Positions 1 to 63,013 of a stretch of DNA of 63,013 nucleotides are shown here, piece after piece; positions within the stretch are counted from its first letter, which is position 1; every line of letters starts with the position of its first letter. The notes beneath the pieces are model-generated. The model was not told the origin of the DNA and made no database searches. It saw only the letters and a list, made by a program, of their open reading frames with translations. This DNA comes from an uncultured Prevotellaceae bacterium (GTDB lineage Bacteria > Bacteroidota > Bacteroidia > Bacteroidales > Bacteroidaceae): the NCBI GenBank assembly GCA_900317635.1, contig ONHN01000008.1:2583-65595 (forward strand), written 5' to 3'. The translations under genes and the position numbers were made by a program.

Positions 1-143
1 CGGGCGAGGCGCCTGCGCTCCCAGGGGGGGGCTACGCCTGCGATGTTTGCGGGCGAGGCGCCCGCGCTCCCAGGGGGGCTACGCCTGCGATGGTTGCGGG
101 CGAGGCGCCCGCGCTCCCAGGGGGGCTACGCCTGCGATTAGCG
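1..143. repeat. 47-bp GC-rich tandem repeat, three copies, continuing off the window edge
   Basis: Units begin at 1, 50 and 97, each with CGGGCGAGGCGC, then CTCCCAGGGGG, then GGCTACGCCTGCGAT. Unit 1 has one extra G in its G run. The array abuts a run of 7-bp repeats (148-194). A diverged single copy in reverse orientation lies at about 24665-24712. It is non-coding in my reading; open frames across it are low-complexity artefacts. Confidence 0.85.
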
Positions 144-147
144 CGGT

Positions 148-194
148 TGCAACTCGTCACTTGTCACTCGTCACTTGTCTCTTGTCACTCGTCG
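148..194. repeat. Family A heptamer arm overlapping the end of the AAA ATPase gene
   Basis: Tandem 7-bp units of the type CTCGTCA/CTTGTCA. The minus-strand reading of this array supplies the last codons (Thr-Asp-Glu) and the TGA stop (185-187) of the ATPase gene. The upstream repeat contributes the GGCTACG word that forms the core of the other family A elements. Confidence 0.8.
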
Positions 195-9877: not shown

Positions 9878-9995
9878 ACGAAGGATACGAATGTTTGTGG
9901 CGTATTGCCAGTGCGTATACGAAAAAAAGGACACGAAGAGTTTAGCGCGTTGTGAGCCTATGGTTGTCACTTGTCACTTGCTACATGTCAACTTC
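9878..9995. repeat. Composite intergenic repeat: CCACGAA-type stretch followed by family A heptamers
   Basis: The stretch from ACCACGAAGGATACGAATG to GGACACGAAGAG (about 9875-9940) resembles 13810-13852 (ACCACGAATGGAGCGAATG ... ACACGAAGAC). Family A units TTGTCAC follow at 9964-9990, immediately beside the stop of the metallophosphoesterase gene (9998-10000). Confidence 0.5.
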
Positions 9996-11184: not shown

Positions 11185-11265
11185 GGGGGGGGTAGGGAAA
11201 GAGATGTTGCGTTGGCAACGCAACAGACAGAACGATGCGGCGGAGCAATGTTTCATGTTTCATGT
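11185..11265. repeat. Intergenic cluster upstream of feoAB: G8 tract, short palindrome, family C heptamers
   Basis: Contains a run of eight G (11185-11192), an odd palindrome GTTGCGTTG-g-CAACGCAAC (11205-11223), and heptamers ATGTTTC-ATGTTTC (11248-11261). It occupies the leader between the divergent phosphoesterase and feoAB genes. No clear consensus promoter for feoAB was found here, and no Fur box was confidently recognised. Confidence 0.6.
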
Positions 11266-11344
11266 CTTCATAAATCCCCTATTTATGGTATTGTCCGTTT
11301 CGAAGAAAAGTGCGAACTTTGCGGCTCAAAAAGTTGAAGTCAGC

Positions 11345-13925: not shown

Positions 13926-15311
13926 TTAACCGTTTAACAGTCCGCTGACGAACACTGCCGCGATAGCTATCGGCACGAAGTAGCGCAGCATCCAGACGAG
14001 CCAGCGTCGGCCAGCGTAATTCAGCGTTCCGTTGTTGGTGAGTTCCTCGCGCAAGATGCGTCTGTCCATCACCCATCCTACAAAGCTTGAAACAAGGATG
14101 CCGGAAAGCGGCAGCAATACTTGCGACGCTACCCAGTCAAAACCATCGAAGAGGTTTTTCCCACCAATCGTCAGCCAGCTGAGCGGTCCCATCGACAGCG
14201 CGCAGGCTGCTCCTACAACAAGGCAGACGCCCGAGACGATACTCGTGGCGCGGCGGCGCGAAATACCCAGTTCCTCTGAAAGCCAAGCTGTAGGCACTTC
14301 GTGGATGCTGATGACGCTTGTCAGCGTGGCTAAAACGAGCAGGGCGTAGAACATGACGCTGACAATCCAGCCCAAAGCGGGAATGCCCGCAAACACATCG
14401 CGAAACACGTCGGGCAAAGCTACGAACACCAGCGAAGCCCCACTGTCGGGCTGAATGCCAGCAGAAAAGACGGCAGGGAAGATAACAACGCCTGCAAGGA
14501 TAGCCACCAGCGTGTCGATGATACTCACGCGAAAGGCTATGCCCGCCAGGTCGGCCTTGCGGTCGAAGTAAGAAGCATAGGTGCACAGAACGCCCATCCC
14601 GATACTCATCGAATAGAAAGCCTGTCCCAAAGCCGACAGACATACCGCCGGTGACAGTCGGCTGAAGTCGGACTTGAAAAGAAAACCGAGACCCGCCGCT
14701 GCACCGTCGGTGAAGAGCGAACAAACGCTCAGCAGCAGCATAATGATGAACAGCAGGGGCATCAGGAGTTTTGAAAAACGCTCTATGCCACGTTGCACCC
14801 CTCGCGTGATGACGAAATGCGAAGCCAGAACAAAAGCCGCCATGCACACGACGGGTTTCCACGGGCTACTGATGAACGCCACGAAATGCGAACCAAAAGT
14901 TTCGCCGCCAGGCTCGCGTCCCAGCGTCTGGAACGTGCCGGCGAGCGTATCGAAGAGGTAGCCCAGCGTCCACCCCGACACAACCACGTAGTAGCACATG
15001 ATGAACCACGGTGTCAGTACGCCCAACAGCCCGATGTTGCGCCAAAATGCGTGGTTCGTCAGTTTCCTGAACGCCTCTGCCGTGTTGGTGCCGCTGTGGC
15101 GACCCACAGCAAATTCGGCCACCATCATCGGTATGCCTAAAAGGACGACGCTGAGCAGATAGACAAGGATAAACGCCCCGCCGCCCCCTTCGCCCGCCGT
15201 GGTAGGGAAGCGCCATATATTGCCTATGCCCACGGCACTTCCCGCCGTTGCCAGCAACAGTCCAATCTTTGAGCCAAAGCTGGCTCGAACCAACGATTTT
15301 TTTGCAGACAT
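13926..15311 (-). CDS. Neurotransmitter:sodium symporter (SNF family)
   Basis: A 461-residue LeuT-fold transporter. The N-terminal signature 'GSKIGLLLATAGSAVGIGNIWRFP' region (about residues 14-36) is the first transmembrane segment with the unwound sodium/substrate site, and 12 hydrophobic segments follow. Bacterial members co-transport amino acids (leucine, tryptophan, tyrosine) with sodium. The ATG at 15311 (MSAKKSLVRASFGSK) is preferred; the 12 codons upstream come from the family A heptamer array. A minus-strand -7 element TATCTTTG lies at 15523-15516, beyond the array, so the array would be in the 5' leader. Confidence 0.9.
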   Translation of the reverse strand: MSAKKSLVRASFGSKIGLLLATAGSAVGIGNIWRFPTTAGEGGGGAFILVYLLSVVLLGIPMMVAEFAVGRHSGTNTAEAFRKLTNHAFWRNIGLLGVLTPWFIMCYYVVVSGWTLGYLFDTLAGTFQTLGREPGGETFGSHFVAFISSPWKPVVCMAAFVLASHFVITRGVQRGIERFSKLLMPLLFIIMLLLSVCSLFTDGAAAGLGFLFKSDFSRLSPAVCLSALGQAFYSMSIGMGVLCTYASYFDRKADLAGIAFRVSIIDTLVAILAGVVIFPAVFSAGIQPDSGASLVFVALPDVFRDVFAGIPALGWIVSVMFYALLVLATLTSVISIHEVPTAWLSEELGISRRRATSIVSGVCLVVGAACALSMGPLSWLTIGGKNLFDGFDWVASQVLLPLSGILVSSFVGWVMDRRILREELTNNGTLNYAGRRWLVWMLRYFVPIAIAAVFVSGLLNG

Positions 15312-15325
15312 AATAATATAGGAAA

Positions 15326-15470
15326 GTTTACGAGTGACAAGTGACAAGTTACAAGTGACAAGTTACAAGTGACAAGTTACGAGTGACAAGTTACAAGTGA
15401 CAAGTTACAAGTGACGAGTTTGGCTACGTCAACGAACAAGTGCTACTGCAACTCGTCACTTGTCACTTGA
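15326..15470. repeat. Family A element, largest copy: 12 heptamers, core, inverted arm
   Basis: Twelve exact-phase 7-bp units run from 15334 to 15417, mostly alternating GTGACAA and GTTACAA. A 30-bp core (15421-15450) begins TGGCTACGTC and ends GCTACTGCA. The inverted arm ACTCGTC-ACTTGTC-ACTTGA (15451-15470) pairs with the left units. It lies between divergent genes in a 447-bp gap that otherwise holds two or three -7 promoter elements. Confidence 0.85.
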
Positions 15471-34011: not shown

Positions 34012-34083
34012 ATCAGTGGTATAGTTGTTGAGGTCTCGTTAGTTGTAAAGTTTCGTAAGATATACAGTGTTGTTTGCAAGTTA

Positions 34084-34134
34084 GACGTCGGCGTAGCCCA
34101 ACTCGTAACCCGTCACTTGTTACTCGTCACTTTT
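34084..34134. repeat. Family A element, core plus one arm
   Basis: The core in reverse sense (GACGTCGGCGTAGCCCA, 34084-34100) is followed by heptamer units ACTCGTA-ACCCGTC-ACTTGTT-ACTCGTC-AC. It lies between the dnaX start and the end of the ClC gene. A purine/pyrimidine-rich stretch (34147-34196, CCCTTTTGGGG and G-rich) separates it from the ClC stop. Confidence 0.7.
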
Positions 34135-34201
34135 TATTAGTATCTACTCCCTCCTCGCCCTTTTGGGGAGAGGGGGGCAGGGGAGAGAGAGGGGCTTCTC
34201 C

Positions 34202-36282: not shown

Positions 36283-36379
36283 GAAGTTATAAATCTCGGC
36301 GGCAAATGTACATTTACCGCCGAGATGATATACATTTCCCGCCGAGAAATATACATTTACCGCCGAGATTTATAACTTC
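36283..36379. repeat. Family B palindromic element, copy 1
   Basis: A 97-bp element with 20-bp perfect terminal inverted repeats (GAAGTTATAAATCTCGGCGG at the left end). Inside are one CTCGGCGG (36295-36302) and three CCGCCGAG words (36317, 36339, 36360) spaced 21-22 bp apart, separated by ATGTACATTT/ATATACATTT spacers. It can fold as one long hairpin or as smaller ones. A near-identical copy is at 46597-46690. It lies in a 504-bp gap upstream of the ClC gene that otherwise holds only the ClC promoter. Confidence 0.95.
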
Positions 36380-46596: not shown

Positions 46597-46690
46597 AAGT
46601 TATAAATCTCGGCGGGAAATGTATATTTCCCGCCGAGGTTTATATATTTCCCGCCGAGAAATGTACATTTCCCGCCGAGATTTATAACTT
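46597..46690. repeat. Family B palindromic element, copy 2
   Basis: A 94-bp element with perfect 20-bp terminal inverted repeats (AAGTTATAAATCTCGGCGGG). Word order matches copy 1: CTCGGCGG at 46608, CCGCCGAG at 46630, 46651 and 46672, spaced exactly 21 bp. It lies between the converging aat and fRMsr genes, where it could serve as a bidirectional terminator. Nothing else is seen in this 282-bp gap. Confidence 0.95.
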
Positions 46691-47291: not shown

Positions 47292-49217
47292 CTATGCGTT
47301 TTGGTTGAGGGCTTGACAGCTTTCGTAGAGTTTTCGATAGAAGGGGTGGCGGCAGAGGGTGCGCGCTGCGCCGAGGATGAAGAGCTTCATGCGTGCGCGG
47401 GTAATGGCCACGTTCATGCGTCGGAGGTCGCGCAGAAAGCCTATGTCGCCAGCTTGGTTGTCGCGCACGAGGGAGATGAGAACGACATCGCGCTCCTGCC
47501 CTTGAAAAGAGTCAACCGTGTTGACGGCGATTTGCGCTCGCAGCGGGCGCAGGACGTCGTCGGTCTTGATGAGGCGGCGCAGGTATTGCACCTGTGCGCG
47601 GTAGGGCGAGATGATGCCAAAGTCTGTGCGCTCGTCGATGAGGCGTTGACGTCCGAACTGCTCGACGAAGTTGCGGAGTACGTGCAGGGTCAGTTCGGCT
47701 TCGGCCTTGTTGATGCGTCCGTAGGAACGGCCCACGAACGTTTCGTGGTAGCCGTCGGCGGCAGTGCCGTCGGCATCGGCGGCTTCTGCTATTTCGGAGG
47801 TATCGACCCACGTCAGCGGCGCAGCCATATCGTCGAGTATGCTGCGGTGGCGCACTTCGGGCGCGGCGGTGAGCTTTCCGCCGTAGAAGTAGTCTGACGA
47901 GAAGCGCATCAGCGTTTCGTTCATGCGGTATTGCACGGTCAGCAGGCGGACGGCTTCGCTGTGGCGCGCCGCCAGCTCCTCCATCAGCGTCGTGCCCAAA
48001 CCGCCGCGCAGCGCCTCGGGACATTTCACGGTGGGCGGCAGCTGACAGTGGTCGCCCGCGAGGACTACGCGGTCGGCCTTTTGCAGGGCAATCCAGCAAG
48101 CGGCTTGCAGGGCTTGGGCGGCCTCGTCGATGAAGAGTGTGTGGTAGTGTTGGCCGTAGAGTAGGGGATTGGCACTGCCTGCCAGGGTGCAGGCAACGAC
48201 GCGCGCCTCGGTGAGGAGTTGGAGGCGAATGCGCGTCTCAATTTCGTCGGCTCGTTCGCGCAGTCGGCTCAGCTTTTGGTGGAAGTTGGCAGGGCGGTTC
48301 TTTCGCGGTGCGCTGAGCAGTTGGCGGCGCGTGCGGCGCAGTTGCCAGAGGGTGGAGTAGTCTGGGTGGTCGGCAAAGCGGCGCTCGTAGGTGCAGGCCA
48401 GCATTTCGTCCGTGACGCGTGTGGGGTTGCCTATGCGCAGGACGCTGATGCCGCGTCGCGCGAGTTGCAGCGCAATCCAATCGACGGCCATATTGCTTTG
48501 CGCGCACACCAGCACCTGCGCTTCGCGGCGCAGCACTTCGCTAATAGCTTCGACAAGCGTAGTGGTTTTGCCCGTGCCTGGGGGGCCGTGAACAACCATA
48601 GCATCGCGACACGCCAGGACGTCGGCCACGGCTTGCTGCTGCGAGGCGTTAAGCCAGGGCAGGGAGGGTGTTGCACGGTGGGGGCTGAAGCTGAGTGGTG
48701 CGCTGCCAGCAAAGGCATCGCGCAGGGCGGCCACGCGTCCTTCCTTTGCCTGCTCGGTCCGGTTCAGTGCCTCGAACATCAGGCGGTAGGTTGTTTCGTC
48801 GAAGTGGAGTTGCACGCCCAAGCGTTCGGACGTAGCCAAGCGCGCGAGGGCTTCTTCGTCGGGCAGGCACACGACCATTTTGCTCTCTTCGGCATAACTC
48901 ACGGTGGCTGCAAAAGGCAGGTAGCTGATGGCTCCTGCTGCATCGAGCGTGAAGAAGCTGACGCTGCGTCCGTATTCGAAGTTGTGGGTTATGTCGGTGT
49001 CTTCGCGCCGCGAGATTTCAACCACGAAGCGGTCGAGCGAGTTGTAGTAGCTACGCCCGACGGAGACGGGAAACCAGCATTCGCCGCGCTTGACGCGGCG
49101 TCCTATGCCCATTGCTTCGGTTTCGCGTTGCATCTGCGCTTTCTCGTATTCGTATTCAAGACGCAGGAGGGCACGTTGGCGCGAGAGGGAGAGTGGTGTC
49201 ACAACTTTTGCGAGCAA
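47292..49217 (-). CDS. Superfamily 1 helicase, UPF1/IGHMBP2-like
   Basis: A 641-residue helicase. In order: a beta-barrel-like N-terminal region, Walker A GPPGTGKTTTLVEAI (about 211-225), motif II FIDEAAQA (about 368-375), motif III VLAGDHCQLPPT, motif IV region VQYRMNETLMRF, motif V DSFQGQERDVVLISLVRDN and motif VI MNVAITRARMKLFILG. This is the UPF1-like 5'-3' helicase group (DNA2/NAM7/IGHMBP2), acting on DNA or RNA. The start used is a TTG at 49217; the first internal ATG (49133) would drop 28 residues with family-like helix, so the TTG or a nearby start is likely. fRMsr follows it. Role in the cell is not known. Confidence 0.9.
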   Translation of the reverse strand: MLAKVVTPLSLSRQRALLRLEYEYEKAQMQRETEAMGIGRRVKRGECWFPVSVGRSYYNSLDRFVVEISRREDTDITHNFEYGRSVSFFTLDAAGAISYLPFAATVSYAEESKMVVCLPDEEALARLATSERLGVQLHFDETTYRLMFEALNRTEQAKEGRVAALRDAFAGSAPLSFSPHRATPSLPWLNASQQQAVADVLACRDAMVVHGPPGTGKTTTLVEAISEVLRREAQVLVCAQSNMAVDWIALQLARRGISVLRIGNPTRVTDEMLACTYERRFADHPDYSTLWQLRRTRRQLLSAPRKNRPANFHQKLSRLRERADEIETRIRLQLLTEARVVACTLAGSANPLLYGQHYHTLFIDEAAQALQAACWIALQKADRVVLAGDHCQLPPTVKCPEALRGGLGTTLMEELAARHSEAVRLLTVQYRMNETLMRFSSDYFYGGKLTAAPEVRHRSILDDMAAPLTWVDTSEIAEAADADGTAADGYHETFVGRSYGRINKAEAELTLHVLRNFVEQFGRQRLIDERTDFGIISPYRAQVQYLRRLIKTDDVLRPLRAQIAVNTVDSFQGQERDVVLISLVRDNQAGDIGFLRDLRRMNVAITRARMKLFILGAARTLCRHPFYRKLYESCQALNQNA

Positions 49218-56295: not shown

Positions 56296-56390
56296 GAATG
56301 TAGGGATTAGATGTTTGGTTTGATGTATTATTATGCTTAATCTTCGCTTAATTGGGGAGCTGAGGGCGATACTCTTATCAACGTTTCATG

Positions 56391-56417
56391 TTTAATGTTT
56401 CATGTTTAACGTTTATT
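56391..56417. repeat. Family C heptamers at the end of dapA
   Basis: Units ACGTTTC-ATGTTTA-ATGTTTC-ATGTTTA-ACGTTTA (period 7) end where the dapA stop codon TAA (56417-56419 on the minus strand) begins. The family also occurs at 11248, 13790 and 13877. Confidence 0.75.
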
Positions 56418-58949: not shown

Positions 58950-59034
58950 CAGCCCGTGTGCCGACTTTCGGCACGTTTGTTGCATAATCAAAGCAAATAA
59001 TAAACAAAAATCATAATCCGTAACACATCAACCG

Positions 59035-60411
59035 ATGAACATTACATTCGACAAAACTTCAGATGCAGCTGCTGTTCTGACGCTGCAAATCGTTAAAAGC
59101 GACTACGAACAAAAGGTTGCTGCTGAAATCAAGAGATATGGCGCAAAGGCTCAAATAAAGGGTTTCCGTCCTGGCCACGTGCCTCAAAGCATGTTGCGCA
59201 AACTCTTCGGTACGCAAATCAAGCTCGAAACAATCAACAGGCTCGTTGATGAAAGCGTGCGCAACTACATCGTAGAGAATAAAGTGGACATGCTGGGCTT
59301 CCCCATGCAACACGAAGACCACGAAGCACAAGACATTGAGCATCAAGACGACTTTGAGTTTAAGTTCGACGTAGCCCTGACGCCTGCCTTTGAACTTGAA
59401 CTTACGTCTAAGGACAAGGTTGCCTACTACGACCTTGAAGTTTCCGACAAGGAAGTGGACCAGGAAATCAGCATGATGCAACGCCAGATGGGCCACAACG
59501 AACTTGTTGACGAGTATCAGGAAGGCGACATCATGCGCGGCCTTATTGCAGAGCTCGATGCCAAAGGGCAACCCCTTGAAGGCGGACTGCAAAACGAAAA
59601 AGGTTTGCTCATGCCCCAGTATTTCAAGAACGAAGACCAGAAGAAACTCTTTGCTGCCGCGAAGAAGAACGACGTTATCACCTTCAGCCCCAATGAAGCT
59701 TACGAAGGTAGCGAAGTGGAACTGGCCAGTCTGTTGGGCGTGAAGAAGGAAGAGCTGGGCGAGCACAAAGAAAGCAAGTATAGCTTCCAAGTGAACGAAA
59801 TTTCGCGTTACGTGCAGGCTCCCATCGACCAGGAACTCTTCGACAGCGTCTTCGGTAAGGATGCCGTAAAAACTGAAGACGAGTTCCGCACCCGTGTCAA
59901 GGAAAACCTACAGCAGCGTGCCGCCAGCGAGAGCGACTCGCGCTTCGGTGTTGACCTGCGCGAATACTGCGAGAAGAAAGTGGGTGTGTTGCCTTTCGAT
60001 GAAAAGCTCATCAAGCGCATTATGAAGAACAACAACCCCGACAAGGACGATGCCTACTTCGACGAAAACTACGCTGACACCGTCAAGGCCCTGACGTGGC
60101 AAGTCATTAGCGACCGCCTCGCTCAACAGTTCGGCGTGAAGATTGAGCAAAACGAATTGAAAGAAGCTGCCATGATGACCACGCGCATGCAGTTTATGCA
60201 ATATGGCTTCGGACAGGTGCCCGAGGAATTTGTTGAGAAGTATGCTAACGAAATGCTCGAAAAGTCCGAACAGCGCGAAAATCTCGTTTATCGCATCATG
60301 CAAAACAAGGTGACGCAGGCAGCCAAAAACGTCGTTTCGCTCAAGCGCAAGAGCGTGGACCGCGCTGCCTTCGACAAACTTTACAAAACCAAAGAAGAGA
60401 AAAAGAAGTAA
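59035..60411 (+). CDS. tig: Trigger factor
   Basis: A 458-residue trigger factor. The ribosome-docking loop GFRPGHVPQSMLRKLFG (about 43-59) is the family signature. The PPIase-like middle domain (about 150-240) is degenerate, as in other Bacteroidota, and a helical C-terminal chaperone domain follows (about 250-440), ending in a Lys/Glu-rich tail. It binds nascent chains at the exit tunnel. It is followed by clpP and clpX, the classical tig-clpP-clpX order, but with a repeat element in each junction (gaps of 183 and 130 bp). Confidence 0.95.
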   Translation: MNITFDKTSDAAAVLTLQIVKSDYEQKVAAEIKRYGAKAQIKGFRPGHVPQSMLRKLFGTQIKLETINRLVDESVRNYIVENKVDMLGFPMQHEDHEAQDIEHQDDFEFKFDVALTPAFELELTSKDKVAYYDLEVSDKEVDQEISMMQRQMGHNELVDEYQEGDIMRGLIAELDAKGQPLEGGLQNEKGLLMPQYFKNEDQKKLFAAAKKNDVITFSPNEAYEGSEVELASLLGVKKEELGEHKESKYSFQVNEISRYVQAPIDQELFDSVFGKDAVKTEDEFRTRVKENLQQRAASESDSRFGVDLREYCEKKVGVLPFDEKLIKRIMKNNNPDKDDAYFDENYADTVKALTWQVISDRLAQQFGVKIEQNELKEAAMMTTRMQFMQYGFGQVPEEFVEKYANEMLEKSEQRENLVYRIMQNKVTQAAKNVVSLKRKSVDRAAFDKLYKTKEEKKK

Positions 60412-60413
60412 AA

Positions 60414-60515
60414 CAAGTAAGTGACGAGTTACGAGTGACAAGTGACGATTGACAAGTCTGGCTACGCCGACGGCAAGCGCATCTGCAACTCGTCACTCGT
60501 GACTTGTCACTCACT
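60414..60515. repeat. Family A element between tig and clpP
   Basis: Left heptamers (CAAGTAA-GTGACGA-GTTACGA-GTGACAA-GTGACGA-TTGACAA), core TGGCTACGCCGACGG ... ATCTGCA (60459-60487), right heptamers ACTCGTC-ACTCGTG-ACTTGTC-ACT. It begins 2 bp after the tig stop codon. Confidence 0.85.
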
Positions 60516-60594
60516 AACTCAGGCAATTGTGTCGTCTTTGACTCTTCTGACTTTCGAAACTTGTATTATTACATAACCATAATATCAATAAAAG

Positions 60595-61260
60595 ATGAAC
60601 AACGATTTCCAACGGTTTGCTACCGGACACGCGGGGATTAGTTCAATGACCCTCGACAGCGTCATCAGCACACAGAACAACTACCTCAACCCCTACATCC
60701 TCGAAGAGCGCCAACTCAACGTGACGCAGCTCGACGTGTTCAGTCGCCTGATGGCCGACCGCATCATCTTCCTTGGCACGCCCATCGAAGACTATACGGC
60801 CAACGTCTTGCAGGCGCAGCTCCTTTACCTCGACTCTATCGACCCTGGTAAGGATATCAACATCTACATCAACTCGCCCGGCGGCAGCGTGCACGCAGGT
60901 TTGGCCATCTACGACACGATGCAGCACATCACGTCCGACGTTTGCACCATTTGCACGGGTATGGCAGCATCCATGGCTGCCGTGTTGCTCGTGGCAGGTC
61001 ATGAAGGTAAACGTGCCGCCTTGCCCCACAGCCGCACGATGATCCACCAACCTATGGGTGGAGCGCAAGGACAAGCCAGCGACATTGAAATCACCGCACG
61101 CGAAATTCAGAAACTTAAAAAGGAACTCTACAACATCATTGCTCAACACAGCCACCAAAGCTTCGACAAGGTTTGGGCCGATAGCGACCGCGACTATTGG
61201 ATGACAGCAGAAGAGGCTAAAGAGTATGGTATGATTGACAAGGTGCTTGTTAGAAACTGA
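60595..61260 (+). CDS. clpP: ATP-dependent Clp protease proteolytic subunit
   Basis: A 221-residue ClpP. The serine protease triad is Ser126 (GMAASMAAVL), His151 (TMIHQP) and Asp200 (SDRDYW); spacings of 25 and 49 residues equal those in E. coli ClpP. 'YINSPGGSVHAGLAIYDTMQ' (about 91-110) forms the oxyanion loop region. The N-terminal 25 residues are longer than in E. coli and may be a propeptide. The tetradecamer works with ClpX and, here, ClpA. It sits between tig and clpX, with family A repeats on both sides. Confidence 0.97.
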   Translation: MNNDFQRFATGHAGISSMTLDSVISTQNNYLNPYILEERQLNVTQLDVFSRLMADRIIFLGTPIEDYTANVLQAQLLYLDSIDPGKDINIYINSPGGSVHAGLAIYDTMQHITSDVCTICTGMAASMAAVLLVAGHEGKRAALPHSRTMIHQPMGGAQGQASDIEITAREIQKLKKELYNIIAQHSHQSFDKVWADSDRDYWMTAEEAKEYGMIDKVLVRN

Positions 61261-61270
61261 AATAGGAGTT

Positions 61271-61378
61271 AACAAGTAACTTTTAAGTGACGAGTGACGA
61301 GTGACAAGTTGCAGCCGCGTTTGTTCGTCGGCGTACCCAAACTCGTAACTTGTCACTCGTCACTTGTCGCTTGTAACT
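61271..61378. repeat. Family A element between clpP and clpX
   Basis: Left heptamers run to 61310, the core is in the opposite sense (TGCAGCCGCG ... GTCGGCGTACCCA, 61309-61339), and right heptamers ACTCGTA-ACTTGTC-ACTCGTC-ACTTGTC continue to 61378, 13 bp before the clpX ATG. The inverted core shows that the core can flip relative to the flanking genes. Confidence 0.85.
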
Positions 61379-61390
61379 AATAATCTTTCT

Positions 61391-62641
61391 ATGGCTACAA
61401 AGAAGAAACATTGCTTCGTGTGTGGACGCACGGAGAATGAGGTGTCTTTGCTCCTCTCGGGGAACGAAGGCTTCATTTGTGATGACTGCATTATGTCGGC
61501 CTACAAACTGCTTGTTGATGCAGGCTATCAAGTTCCGTCTGGCATTACTCCCTCATCATCTTCGCATCAGCATAAAGCCACCGACTTTAAGAGCATACCC
61601 AAGCCACAAGAGATAAAGGCCTTTCTCGACCGCTACATCATAGGTCAGGACGATGCAAAGCGTTACCTTTCCGTAGCCGTTTACAACCACTATAAGCGCC
61701 TATCACAAACGGGGGGCGACGATGGTGTGGAAATAGAGAAGAGTAACATCATCATGGTGGGGCCCACGGGAACGGGTAAGACCTTGCTCGCTCGCACCGT
61801 GGCCCGCTTGTTGGACGTGCCGTTCTGCATTGTCGATGCGACGGTCTTTACCGAAGCCGGCTATGTGGGCGAAGACGTGGAGAGCATCCTCTCGCGTCTG
61901 TTGCAAGAAGCCGACTACGACGTAGCGCGTGCGGAATGCGGCATTGTCTTCATCGACGAGATAGACAAAATTGCTCGCAAGGCCGACAACCCCAGCATCA
62001 CGCGCGACGTGAGTGGCGAGGGTGTACAGCAAAGTATGCTGAAACTTCTTGAGGGCAGCATTGTCAACGTGCCGCCAAAGGGAGGTCGCAAGCACCCCGA
62101 CCAGGACTACGTGAAAGTTGACACACACAATATTCTATTTATATGCGGCGGCGCATTCGACGGCATTGAGAAGAAGATTGCGCAACGCCTCAACACCCAC
62201 ACCGTGGGTTTCGAAAACGTGCGCCAGACCCACCGCATTGATCCCAAGAACCTCCTGCAATACGTTGATCCTACCGACCTGAAGAGCTTTGGTCTTATCC
62301 CCGAAATCATCGGTCGCCTGCCCGTATTGACCTATCTCTATCCGCTCGACCGCGAAGCCCTGCGCCGCATCCTCATCGAGCCGCAAAACTCGTTAGTTCG
62401 GCAATACGAGAAACTCTTCGCCATGGACGGCACGAAGCTGACGTTCGAGCCAGAGGCGCTCGACTTCATCGTAGATAAAGCCGTGGAGTACAAGCTTGGG
62501 GCACGCGGCCTGCGTAGCATCGTCGAGGCTATCATGTCGCAAGCCATGTTCGACAATCCTTCGCAAGCAAACAAGAAGTTCTGCGTCACAGCCGACTATG
62601 CGCGCACAGAGTTCGAGAAGAACGGACGGCTGTCTATCTAA
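61391..62641 (+). CDS. clpX: ATP-dependent Clp protease ATP-binding subunit ClpX
   Basis: A 416-residue ClpX. The zinc finger has Cys8, Cys11, Cys30 and Cys33. Walker A is [11 protein letters not shown] (about 119-129), Walker B VFIDEID (about 181-187), with a GYVGED pore-loop segment (about 158-163) and an [19 protein letters not shown] segment (about 192-210). The ClpP-binding loop reads TVGF (normally IGF), about residue 277-280. It unfolds tagged proteins for ClpP. The ATG at 61391 is chosen because it opens the zinc finger; the nine codons upstream come from the heptamer repeat. A strong terminator follows. Confidence 0.96.
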
Positions 62642-62675
62642 GGTACAATAAGCCCACTCCCACTTCTCCACATCC

Positions 62676-62722
62676 AACGTTCCCCTATATGCCAAACGAC
62701 AATAGGCATATAGGGGAACGTT
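62676..62722 (+). terminator. Intrinsic terminator of clpX
   Basis: A perfect 18-bp stem AACGTTCCCCTATATGCC/GGCATATAGGGGAACGTT with an 11-nt loop, followed by GTTTT. It starts 34 bp after the clpX stop. Confidence 0.92.
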
Positions 62723-62725
62723 GTT

Positions 62726-62836
62726 TTAAGTGACAAGTAAGTTAAGGAGTGACGAGTGACAAGTGACGAGTAAGGCTACGCCCTAATAAGTGCTGCTACA
62801 ACTCTTCACTTGTCACTCGTCACTTGTCACTTGTTA
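62726..62836. repeat. Family A element after clpX
   Basis: Left arm with AAGTGACAAGT and GTGACGA-GTGACAA-GTGACGA units (to 62772), core AGGCTACGCCC ... TGCTGCTACA (62772-62800), right arm ACTCTTC-ACTTGTC-ACTCGTC-ACTTGTC. Same layout as the copies after tig and clpP. Confidence 0.85.
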
Positions 62837-62873
62837 ATTCAAGTTTCTGAAGTTGTGATACGGGTGTGATAAA

Positions 62874-62967
62874 TGGTGCGCGAAGCGTACTGCACGTCAC
62901 AAAGTTCCACCCCAGACATGACTTATTAGTTATACATTCTTATCATGTGCGGTACGCTCTGCGCACC
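62874..62967. repeat. Family E inverted repeat, copy 2
   Basis: Left arm GGTGCGCGAAGCGTACTGCAC (62875-62895, read in parts) and right arm GTGCGGTACGCTCTGCGCACC (62947-62967, its imperfect inverse) match copy 1 at 42925-42988. No gene was found from 62642 to the window end. Confidence 0.7.
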
Positions 62968-63013
62968 GTCTTTCTCCTCCCGTCACCTACCGCGCATTCC
63001 TCTTCGCTTCGCT

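Follow-up and report, generated by a model that had tools for sequence, protein, structure and literature searches.

Dispersed intergenic repeats with a short core between inverted heptamer arms in an uncultured Prevotellaceae bacterium

The window, i.e., the whole stretch of 63,013 nucleotides analyzed here, carries tandem arrays of degenerate 7-bp units (GTKACRA) in the gaps between its genes, and clpP, assigned by Pfam like its neighbors tig and clpX, has an element on either side. The pattern for a tandem pair of units, GTKACRAGTKACRA, had 26 matches in the window, compared with 0.02 expected, and none of 100 shuffles reached 26, which confirmed the tandem 7-bp units that an earlier sequence-only reading had listed at seven places. 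In its full form, the element consists of GTKACRA units, a core of mostly 29–31 bp (GGCTACGCCGACGAACAAGCGCGGCTGCAAC), and inverted units, and is located between genes; the complete copies bore out the layout proposed in that reading. The copies in the window are listed in Table 1.

Table 1. Heptamer arms, cores, and partial elements in the window
Feature	Coordinates	Strand	Details
Copy A (15327–15466), left arm	15327..15417	+	13 units (GTGACAA/GTTACAA/GTGACGA), one mismatch per unit allowed
Copy A, core GGCTACGTCAACGAACAAGTGCTACTGCAAC	15422..15452	+	85.4 bits
Copy A, right arm	15453..15466	-	2 inverted units
Copy B (60421–60510), left arm	60421..60455	+	5 units; starts 9 bp past trigger-factor gene
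Copy B, core	60460..60489	+	74.1 bits
Copy B, right arm	60490..60510	-	3 units, one mismatch allowed
Copy C (61287–61377; - strand element), right arm	61287..61307	+	3 units; clpP–clpX gap
Copy C, core GGGTACGCCGACGAACAAACGCGGCTGCAAC	61308..61338	-	81.3 bits
Copy C, left arm of - strand element	61343..61377	-	5 units
Copy D (62749–62830), left arm	62749..62769	+	3 units
Copy D, core GGCTACGCCCTAATAAGTGCTGCTACAAC	62774..62802	+	72.9 bits
Copy D, right arm	62803..62830	-	4 units
Partial element: core start and one decayed arm	34070..34131 (ends approximate)	-	upstream of dnaX-like gene
Core without left arm, joined on left to 47-bp GC-rich tandem repeat (1–138)	124..153	+	
Single arm of the 124..153 core copy	154..188	-	heptamer units
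Two units without core, at gene boundary	9964..9977	-	exact pair

Four of the seven places are complete two-armed copies (A–D), and three are incomplete: the copy at 34084–34134 has one decayed arm, that at 148–194 has one arm, and that at 9964–9990 is coreless. The 34084–34134 copy gave no match to the exact 14-mer, and no array was seen by eye directly upstream of the ortholog of the dnaX-like gene in a relative, G016. The unit number does vary, as had been claimed, with a range of 2 to 13 per arm in the complete window copies when a mismatch was tolerated in each unit, rather than the 3 to 12 given earlier. At 61271–61378, the core indeed runs in the opposite sense, but the entire element is reversed, not the core alone; because the arms are symmetrical, this copy reads as a whole element in the other orientation. 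Units on the + strand lay to the left of those on the - strand in all 12 groups with units on both strands, in line with the claim that arm polarity is kept. In an Rfam search of the window, two tRNAs were the only matches at the gathering score, and the heptamer elements matched no known Rfam family at that score. Separately, similar 21-bp tandem repeats (TACATTTACCGCCGAGATATA and variants) occur at window positions 36309–36374 and 46622–46686 and at 14832–14896 of L328.

The genome from which the window was taken (G000) is a draft of 2,416,467 bases in 62 contigs and is 85 percent complete, so repeats are likely to be collapsed in it or missing from it. It contains 306 GTKACRA pairs (182 forward and 124 reverse), while the reversed-pattern control gave none. 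A covariance model of the complete element, the scan proposed in the sequence-only reading, found further copies, with matches at 68 places in G000 at an E value of 0.001 or better when 90 of 2370 candidates were scored under strict filters. The core consensus from an alignment of 21 complete copies is GGCTACGCCGACGAACAAGCGCNGCTGCAAC. The exact core pattern GGCTACGYC..TGCAAC matched 26 times in G000, at least three of these matches being coding and unrelated as judged by eye (in L031, in L050, and at window position 48829). The family shares with intergenic heptanucleotide tandem repeats (SSRs/STRRs) the occurrence of tandem units at many loci in numbers above chance, the intergenic position, and array lengths that differ by whole units.

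The position of the arrays relative to genes was examined in 249,801 bases of G000, comprising 27 stretches (the window and 26 picked for holding arrays), with genes called by a simple home-made caller whose calls are approximate. No called gene was overlapped in 40 of 48 array groups, and the remaining eight overlapped by 1–21 bp. Of the gaps in this sample, which is biased to array-bearing stretches, 38 of 137 co-directional ones held an array, as did 4 of 16 that were divergent and 3 of 19 that were convergent; these counts indicate no clear preference, including for convergent gaps. Among 34 one-sided groups (exact pairs on one strand only, with both neighbors known and in some cases a decayed second arm), 27 had their outer end closer to a gene than their inner one (p 0.0008), with median distances to the gene of 15.5 bp for outer and 117 bp for inner ends; this would be expected of an element that fills the gap and truly terminates at its outer end. 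In one G000 gap, a copy is separated by just 7 bp from the DnaJ-like gene on one side and by the same distance from the Mur-ligase-family gene on the other. Among 26 of the 27 model loci on these stretches (the weak L159:2984 was left out), whole elements ran with their co-directional neighbors in nine cases and against them in 10, while three were in divergent gaps, one was in a convergent gap, and three were at an edge; the weakest model matches score alike on both strands, and their orientation means little. Together with an orientation that does not differ within a strain pair or within either of two ortholog pairs, this even ratio does not support the invertible core suggested in the sequence-only reading.

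A scan of public contigs with the core and two right-hand units, which may leave out the window's own genome, gave one match, on contig JAGAYF010000019.1 of the metagenome-assembled genome RGIG8882 from water deer omasum. This contig covers the same locus as G000:C28:1734, with 2474 of 2548 aligned columns identical, 47 mismatches, and four gaps, namely +7 bp in the left arm, -14 bp in the right arm, and two 3-bp gaps in a gene. The strain-level comparison consists of one pair, 98 percent identical over the aligned part. All seven pair matches of RGIG8882 are on this contig, and because the rest of its contigs contain none, the contig is probably mis-binned and from a strain of the species of G000. 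Between the relatives G016 and G039, the element in the gap between the ATP synthase alpha and gamma genes (atpA–atpG) differs by one unit on the left and two on the right. The element shared by G000 and G016 between two adjoining Proton_antipo_M genes (Pfam), which we take to be nuoM and nuoN from gene order, shows one 7-bp gap, as well as 1–3-bp gaps in the left arm. The 7- and 14-bp indels in the arms of the strain pair and the atpA–atpG orthologs support the slippage suggested in the sequence-only reading.

The two arms changed independently. Across 38 elements (each distinct core-plus-flank string among the G000 loci analyzed counted once, both sides having one unit or more), the left arm had 1–13 and the right arm 1–8 units when one mismatch per unit was allowed, and the two numbers were uncorrelated (Spearman 0.09, p 0.59, n = 38). 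Facing units showed no concordance at the two variable positions (p 0.40 to 1.0, n 11–38). In the 21-copy alignment, arm pairing was only a little higher than in shuffled data, at 84.2 percent versus 82.5 percent (17 of 500 shuffles were as high), and six pairs had changed on both sides versus 3.8 (32 of 500). The power of both the concordance and the pairing tests is limited because G-U lets most mixed pairs form. The uncorrelated unit numbers and the non-concordant variants leave selection for exact arm pairing unsupported, and the earlier suggestion that the folded form may be what is selected was not supported. Of the outcome that the sequence-only reading had named as refuting it, independent drift of the arms until pairing is lost, the drift was observed and the loss of pairing was not, as pairing persists because the units stay alike. 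Within 40 arrays, neighboring units alternated (identity 27 at lag 1 versus 35.7 shuffled and 35 at lag 2 versus 27.5), which fits changes by two units at once.

For RNA of the complete window copies, the predicted folding energies are -46 to -56 kcal/mol, with z scores of -4.3 to -8.1, and such strong predicted folds are as expected of inverted arrays of one word. No T-run was seen by eye beside the arms of the tig–clpP–clpX copies (60421–62830), and none of the nine terminator-like sites found in a scan of 59000–63013 was at an arm, the scan detecting loops of up to 8 only and the copy at 15327 lying outside it. These results speak against the termination signal proposed in the sequence-only reading, and the presence of copies inside clpP–clpX, nuoM–nuoN, and atpA–atpG would likewise argue against a strong terminator.

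The inner end of an array mostly joins one or the other core end (79 arrays listed, by eye), and one-sided arrays often lead from the core into a GC-rich hairpin module of the GCAGGCGTCTCGCCTGC type and have no second arm (by eye). The window copy at 124–188 is of this mosaic type, its left side being the 47-bp tandem repeat of positions 1–138. Such fusions of core, arm, and GC hairpin seem comparable to the mosaics known as BIMEs. The 47-bp GC-rich repeat and single GC hairpin modules of the GCRGGCGNGRCGCCYGC type, often followed by CCCAG..GGCTACGCC, are fused to heptamer cores at window 1–138 and in L041, L151, L155, and L159, and belong to a family of their own, perhaps REP-like. At several loci (window ~34130–34195, L001, and L037), a second module, CTCCCTCCTCGCCC..GGGGAGAGGGGGCAGGGGGAGAGAG, directly adjoins heptamer arms, and a further repeated module, resembling GTGACAATTTTTTGTCT..GGGTGACAATTTTTTGAGTAG, is the outer flank common to three arrays (L144, L153, and L156). 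G000 also has a second heptamer family, with words such as TAAACAT and GAAACGT, at window positions 56380–56415 and 11248–11271 and in L147 and L330; in L147, its array directly adjoins a GTKACRA array.

Orthologous gaps showed both presence or absence of the element and whole-unit differences, the comparison that the sequence-only reading had proposed. The clpP–clpX gap is 103 bp long with its element in G000, whereas it is at most 65 bp in 27 relatives and 210 bp in two; no array was found at any of these 29 relatives' loci (51 of 58 genomes matched, and 30 loci were taken, 29 of them from relatives). The nuoM–nuoN core is identical at 28 of 30 positions between G000 and G016, and the gap has no element in G019 (where it is 10 bp), G045, or G020. 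Elements are absent from the tested gaps of the examined relatives save at one shared site. In the atpA–atpG gap, G016 and G039 share an element of another core type, the non-arm part of which is identical at 75 of 77 positions, whereas the flanking genes agree at 1522 of 1887 (p 3e-5), suggesting that this gap may be under constraint in these two genomes; the corresponding values for nuoM–nuoN are 48 of 53 and 2112 of 2506 (p 0.25). Two copies are common to species approximately 16–19 percent apart in the flanking genes, indicating that not all copies are recent and that some elements are long-lived. A third shared position lies just past the stop codon of a transglutaminase-like gene, where both G000 and G016 have arms and approximately 10 of 17 core bases agree by eye. 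Heptamer elements of different families also occur on the 3' side of a gene in G000 (L271, ~1090–1215) and G015 (L093, ~2190–2330) that looks like efp; the other neighbor of this gene differs between the two genomes.

Among 58 genomes of the genus, GTKACRA pairs matched in eight (G000, 306; G039, 82; G016, 72; G019, 8; G008, 3; and G020, G051, and G057, one each). The covariance model matched in five, including G000, and not in the other 53, with 10 rows in G039, five in G016, four in G045, and one in G019 (both strands of one locus included); one of these scored 67.9 bits and the others 43.2 or less. A second word was surfaced by the reversed-pattern control, as G015 has 116 ARCAKTG pairs. 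Its elements have GAMCRTT arms around a 27–29-bp core close to RCCAATACCGGYWGCAAWGGGTTTTGC, with 12 two-sided pairings among 36 arrays at 14 loci, two of the 12 re-counting a neighbor's arm or core. G039 has both words, GTKACRA and ARCAKTG, and some of its GTKACRA elements contain a nested heptamer (AACCAAT/AACCGTT) within the core. In G016, core-less arrays were seen by eye at unrelated sites. Five local alignments among the cores of G000, G016/G039, and G015 were no better than shuffles (p 0.10 to 0.70), giving no indication of core homology.

Beyond the genus, three-unit GTKACRA runs were found in nine genomes, in six of 30 genera, of an even family sample of 399 genomes that is without G016 and G039; one of the nine positives (G280) is the probably mis-binned RGIG8882 contig. 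Two genomes of other genera, G188 (L164) and G289 (L174), have 11–12 units, a spacer of approximately 17–19 bp, and inverted units (by eye), with words such as GTTACGA/GCTACGA and GTTAGGA/GTGAGGA. Period 7 was the commonest class of intergenic tandem repeat in a survey of 20 stretches of 20 kb (37 of 87 clusters versus two of 17 rows in shuffled stretches), which were unselected except that G133, G351, G398, and G405 were chosen for the second word. The period-7 clusters numbered 11 in G351, 10 in G133, eight in G405, and six in G000, and the six stretches of G003, G004, G017, G056, and G057 together had one. In two 20-kb stretches of G351 (L343 and L344), we observed dense arrays of many heptamers and some octamers (TTAACCC, TTCACTC, GTGAGAA, and AGAGTTTA), with no inverted arms at the places looked at. 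Three-unit runs were also present in 40 viral-labelled stretches, four of which had two-sided arrays with other spacers; carriage by viruses was considered and rejected, and a scan with the present core gave no match.

The sequence-only reading had also proposed a mobile non-autonomous element. As a class, this was upheld by the 68 model matches and by element-free gaps in relatives, of the kind seen for MITEs, at clpP–clpX (29 relatives) and nuoM–nuoN (G019, G045, and G020), but the analysis turned up neither a mobilizing gene (sought among Y1 transposases only) nor a target duplication nor an exact end. The outer flanks shared no more than shuffled pairs did (n = 38, p 0.55), in a test whose power is limited by the fuzzy ends, and when the terminal inverted repeats of MITEs were considered, the arms were inverted but of variable length, with no fixed end. 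A single full-length Y1 gene was found in G000 (L051, 1495–1953; G000:C42:35981), an intact IS200-like transposase ORF that passes the IS200 model and is below the cut-off for the REP-associated model. Both of its sides carry inverted and direct repeats (82–171 bp) as well as GC hairpin modules that are inverted relative to each other. Its product is only 32–34 percent identical to the Y1 proteins of G015, G016, and G039. No heptamer array of either family was found at 23 of 24 Y1 loci (23 genes, that of G000 counted twice), including that of G000, and the remaining one (L223 of G016) has three units approximately 1.8 kb away. A full-length Y1 match is present in 21 of the 58 genomes by hand count, including all four heptamer-rich ones (G000, G015, G016, and G039), but with that many genomes having a match, the association is weak, and it was spotted only afterwards. 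Mobilization by RAYT/Y1 was rejected, since the heptamer-rich genomes have Y1 genes that are neither closely related to that of G000 nor located beside arms.

One core and one heptamer occur at many loci, in intergenic positions, with whole-unit changes that are independent in each arm. We consider it probable that these elements make up one intergenic repeat family, dispersed, non-coding, non-autonomous, and MITE- or BIME-like, with slippage-driven arms, and what we see looks like a dispersed repeat that is tolerated rather than a switch. Because the same core is found at dozens of loci, the copies would have spread by copying, the inverted polarity being inherited from the copied unit, and the arms would then have lengthened and shortened by replication slippage, as the 7- and 14-bp steps suggest. 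Insertions in genes or promoters would have been purged, leaving copies in short gaps, often within operons. Transcripts through a copy would fold as a long intercistronic hairpin, and the pattern could be explained without a function. Against this reading, no transposase or autonomous partner was found among the Y1 genes, the only ones examined, and there was no target duplication; the conservation of the atpA–atpG non-arm part hints at constraint, of which nuoM–nuoN gave no significant repeat; and arm pairing was slightly above that of shuffles in the 21-copy alignment. The core-less arrays of G016 are not explained by the copying of a core-bearing unit and leave room for a process at the level of the heptamer.

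Such a process, an undescribed copying of 7-bp units that homogenizes heptamers genome-wide within a species and swaps them between species, beyond slippage, seems to us unlikely. If it existed, with templated fold-back synthesis or gene conversion between arms as conceivable mechanisms, it would put one and the same word at sites with and without a core, surround unrelated loops of comparable length with inverted arms, and insert a newer heptamer into an older element, as in the G039 cores. Selection on the folded RNA, as an intercistronic processing, stability, or termination hairpin, is a doubtful but not negligible explanation: the strong predicted folds, the same sense of inversion in every two-armed group, the small pairing excess, and the unusual conservation of the G016/G039 atpA–atpG gap would all suit it, whereas the uncorrelated unit numbers, the non-concordant facing variants, the lack of T-runs by the tig–clpP–clpX arms, the copies within clpP–clpX and nuoM–nuoN of G000 and atpA–atpG of G016 and G039, and the absence of a clear preference for convergent gaps point away from it. 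That the arms are putative sites for a DNA- or RNA-binding protein, with unit number tuning occupancy, is rather improbable, given that the word varies between species, several heptamers coexist in one genome, arm lengths are uncorrelated, and orientation to genes is about even, although one word with units near the consensus recurs at many loci and the outer ends of one-sided arrays lie so close to gene boundaries. There is only a small chance that these are REPIN-type elements mobilized by a RAYT/Y1 transposase; the inverted GC hairpin module flanking the G000 Y1 gene is elsewhere fused to heptamer arms and all four heptamer-rich genomes have a Y1 match, but the divergence of the G000 protein, its fit to the IS200 rather than the REP-associated model, and the array-free Y1 loci argue otherwise. 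We give barely more than slight credence to the idea that slippage created the arrays separately at every site from chance seeds, with no dispersal: the core-less G016 arrays and the prevalence of period 7 with many words are compatible with it, but a common core, with its exact sites and model matches, cannot form locally, and two-unit seeds seldom arise by chance (0.02 per 63 kb). A phase-variable switch, in which recombination between the inverted arms inverts the core, would account for both orientations among copies, but is very improbable considering the unchanged orientation in the strain and ortholog pairs.

The favored reading, a dispersed repeat with slippage-driven arms, can be set beside several known systems, and it carries the warning that such gaps are not to be read as regulatory hairpins without data. 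REP/BIME mosaics and REPINs are palindromic intergenic modules in varying combinations, and the fusion of heptamer arms and core to GC hairpin modules resembles them; tandem heptamer arms are, to our knowledge, not part of REPs, and unlike REPINs, the elements had no arms beside the Y1 genes examined, save three units 1.8 kb from one. The cyanobacterial STRR heptamers are short tandem heptamers dispersed between genes, and we know of no core with inverted arms among them. Porphyromonas gingivalis, which we take to be of the same bacterial order as the source organism, offers a further comparison. Its MITE BrickBuilt, which has 23-nt tandem units (PMC4596501), is likewise described in the part of that report consulted as intergenic, dispersed, and non-coding, with variable tandem units joined to conserved segments and with partial copies. 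Its units are enclosed by a leader and a tail, with small inverted repeats at the ends, whereas here the 7-bp arms lie outside a short core (PMC4596501, same part). Membership in BrickBuilt was rejected on the unit, 7 bp rather than 23 nt, not on leader or tail sequence.

Intergenic heptanucleotide repeats are known from Xanthomonas (GGGAATC) and Nostoc (GGGGA(C/T)T), and the same paper states that heptamers were found in 2007 to be over-represented among the simple repeats of many bacterial genomes and cites, as an explanation, the idea of slippage linked to the polymerase footprint (PMC4692102). Like ours, the Xanthomonas and Nostoc arrays are dispersed, degenerate, mostly non-coding, near genes, and variable in unit number, with some inverted pairs, the same gaps occupied at different lengths in related species, and slippage cited as an idea; they differ in a four-unit preference and G-quadruplex potential, and the text of PMC4692102 at hand describes no conserved core between inverted arms. 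TAACTGA direct repeats occur in Beggiatoaceae, cyanobacteria, and five Bacteroidetes (PMC4679880). They too are intergenic heptamer arrays with indels between strains mostly in 7-nt steps, near start codons in some species and mixed with other heptamers in some genomes, but they are another word and direct, with one indirect repeat in the main genome, and the sections of PMC4679880 consulted describe no core. In the open-license literature on heptamers, tandem repeats, and REPINs, as far as its accessible text goes, no report of a dispersed core with inverted heptamer arms was recognized. Judged against these sources in the parts consulted, intergenic heptamer arrays are already known, and the dispersed core flanked by inverted heptamer arms looks new. 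Given the variety of heptamer words among related gut bacteria, the sites common to different species, and the strain-variable arm lengths, the family is a test bed that, set beside the known repeats, would allow us to measure whether slippage, copying, or function sets period 7.
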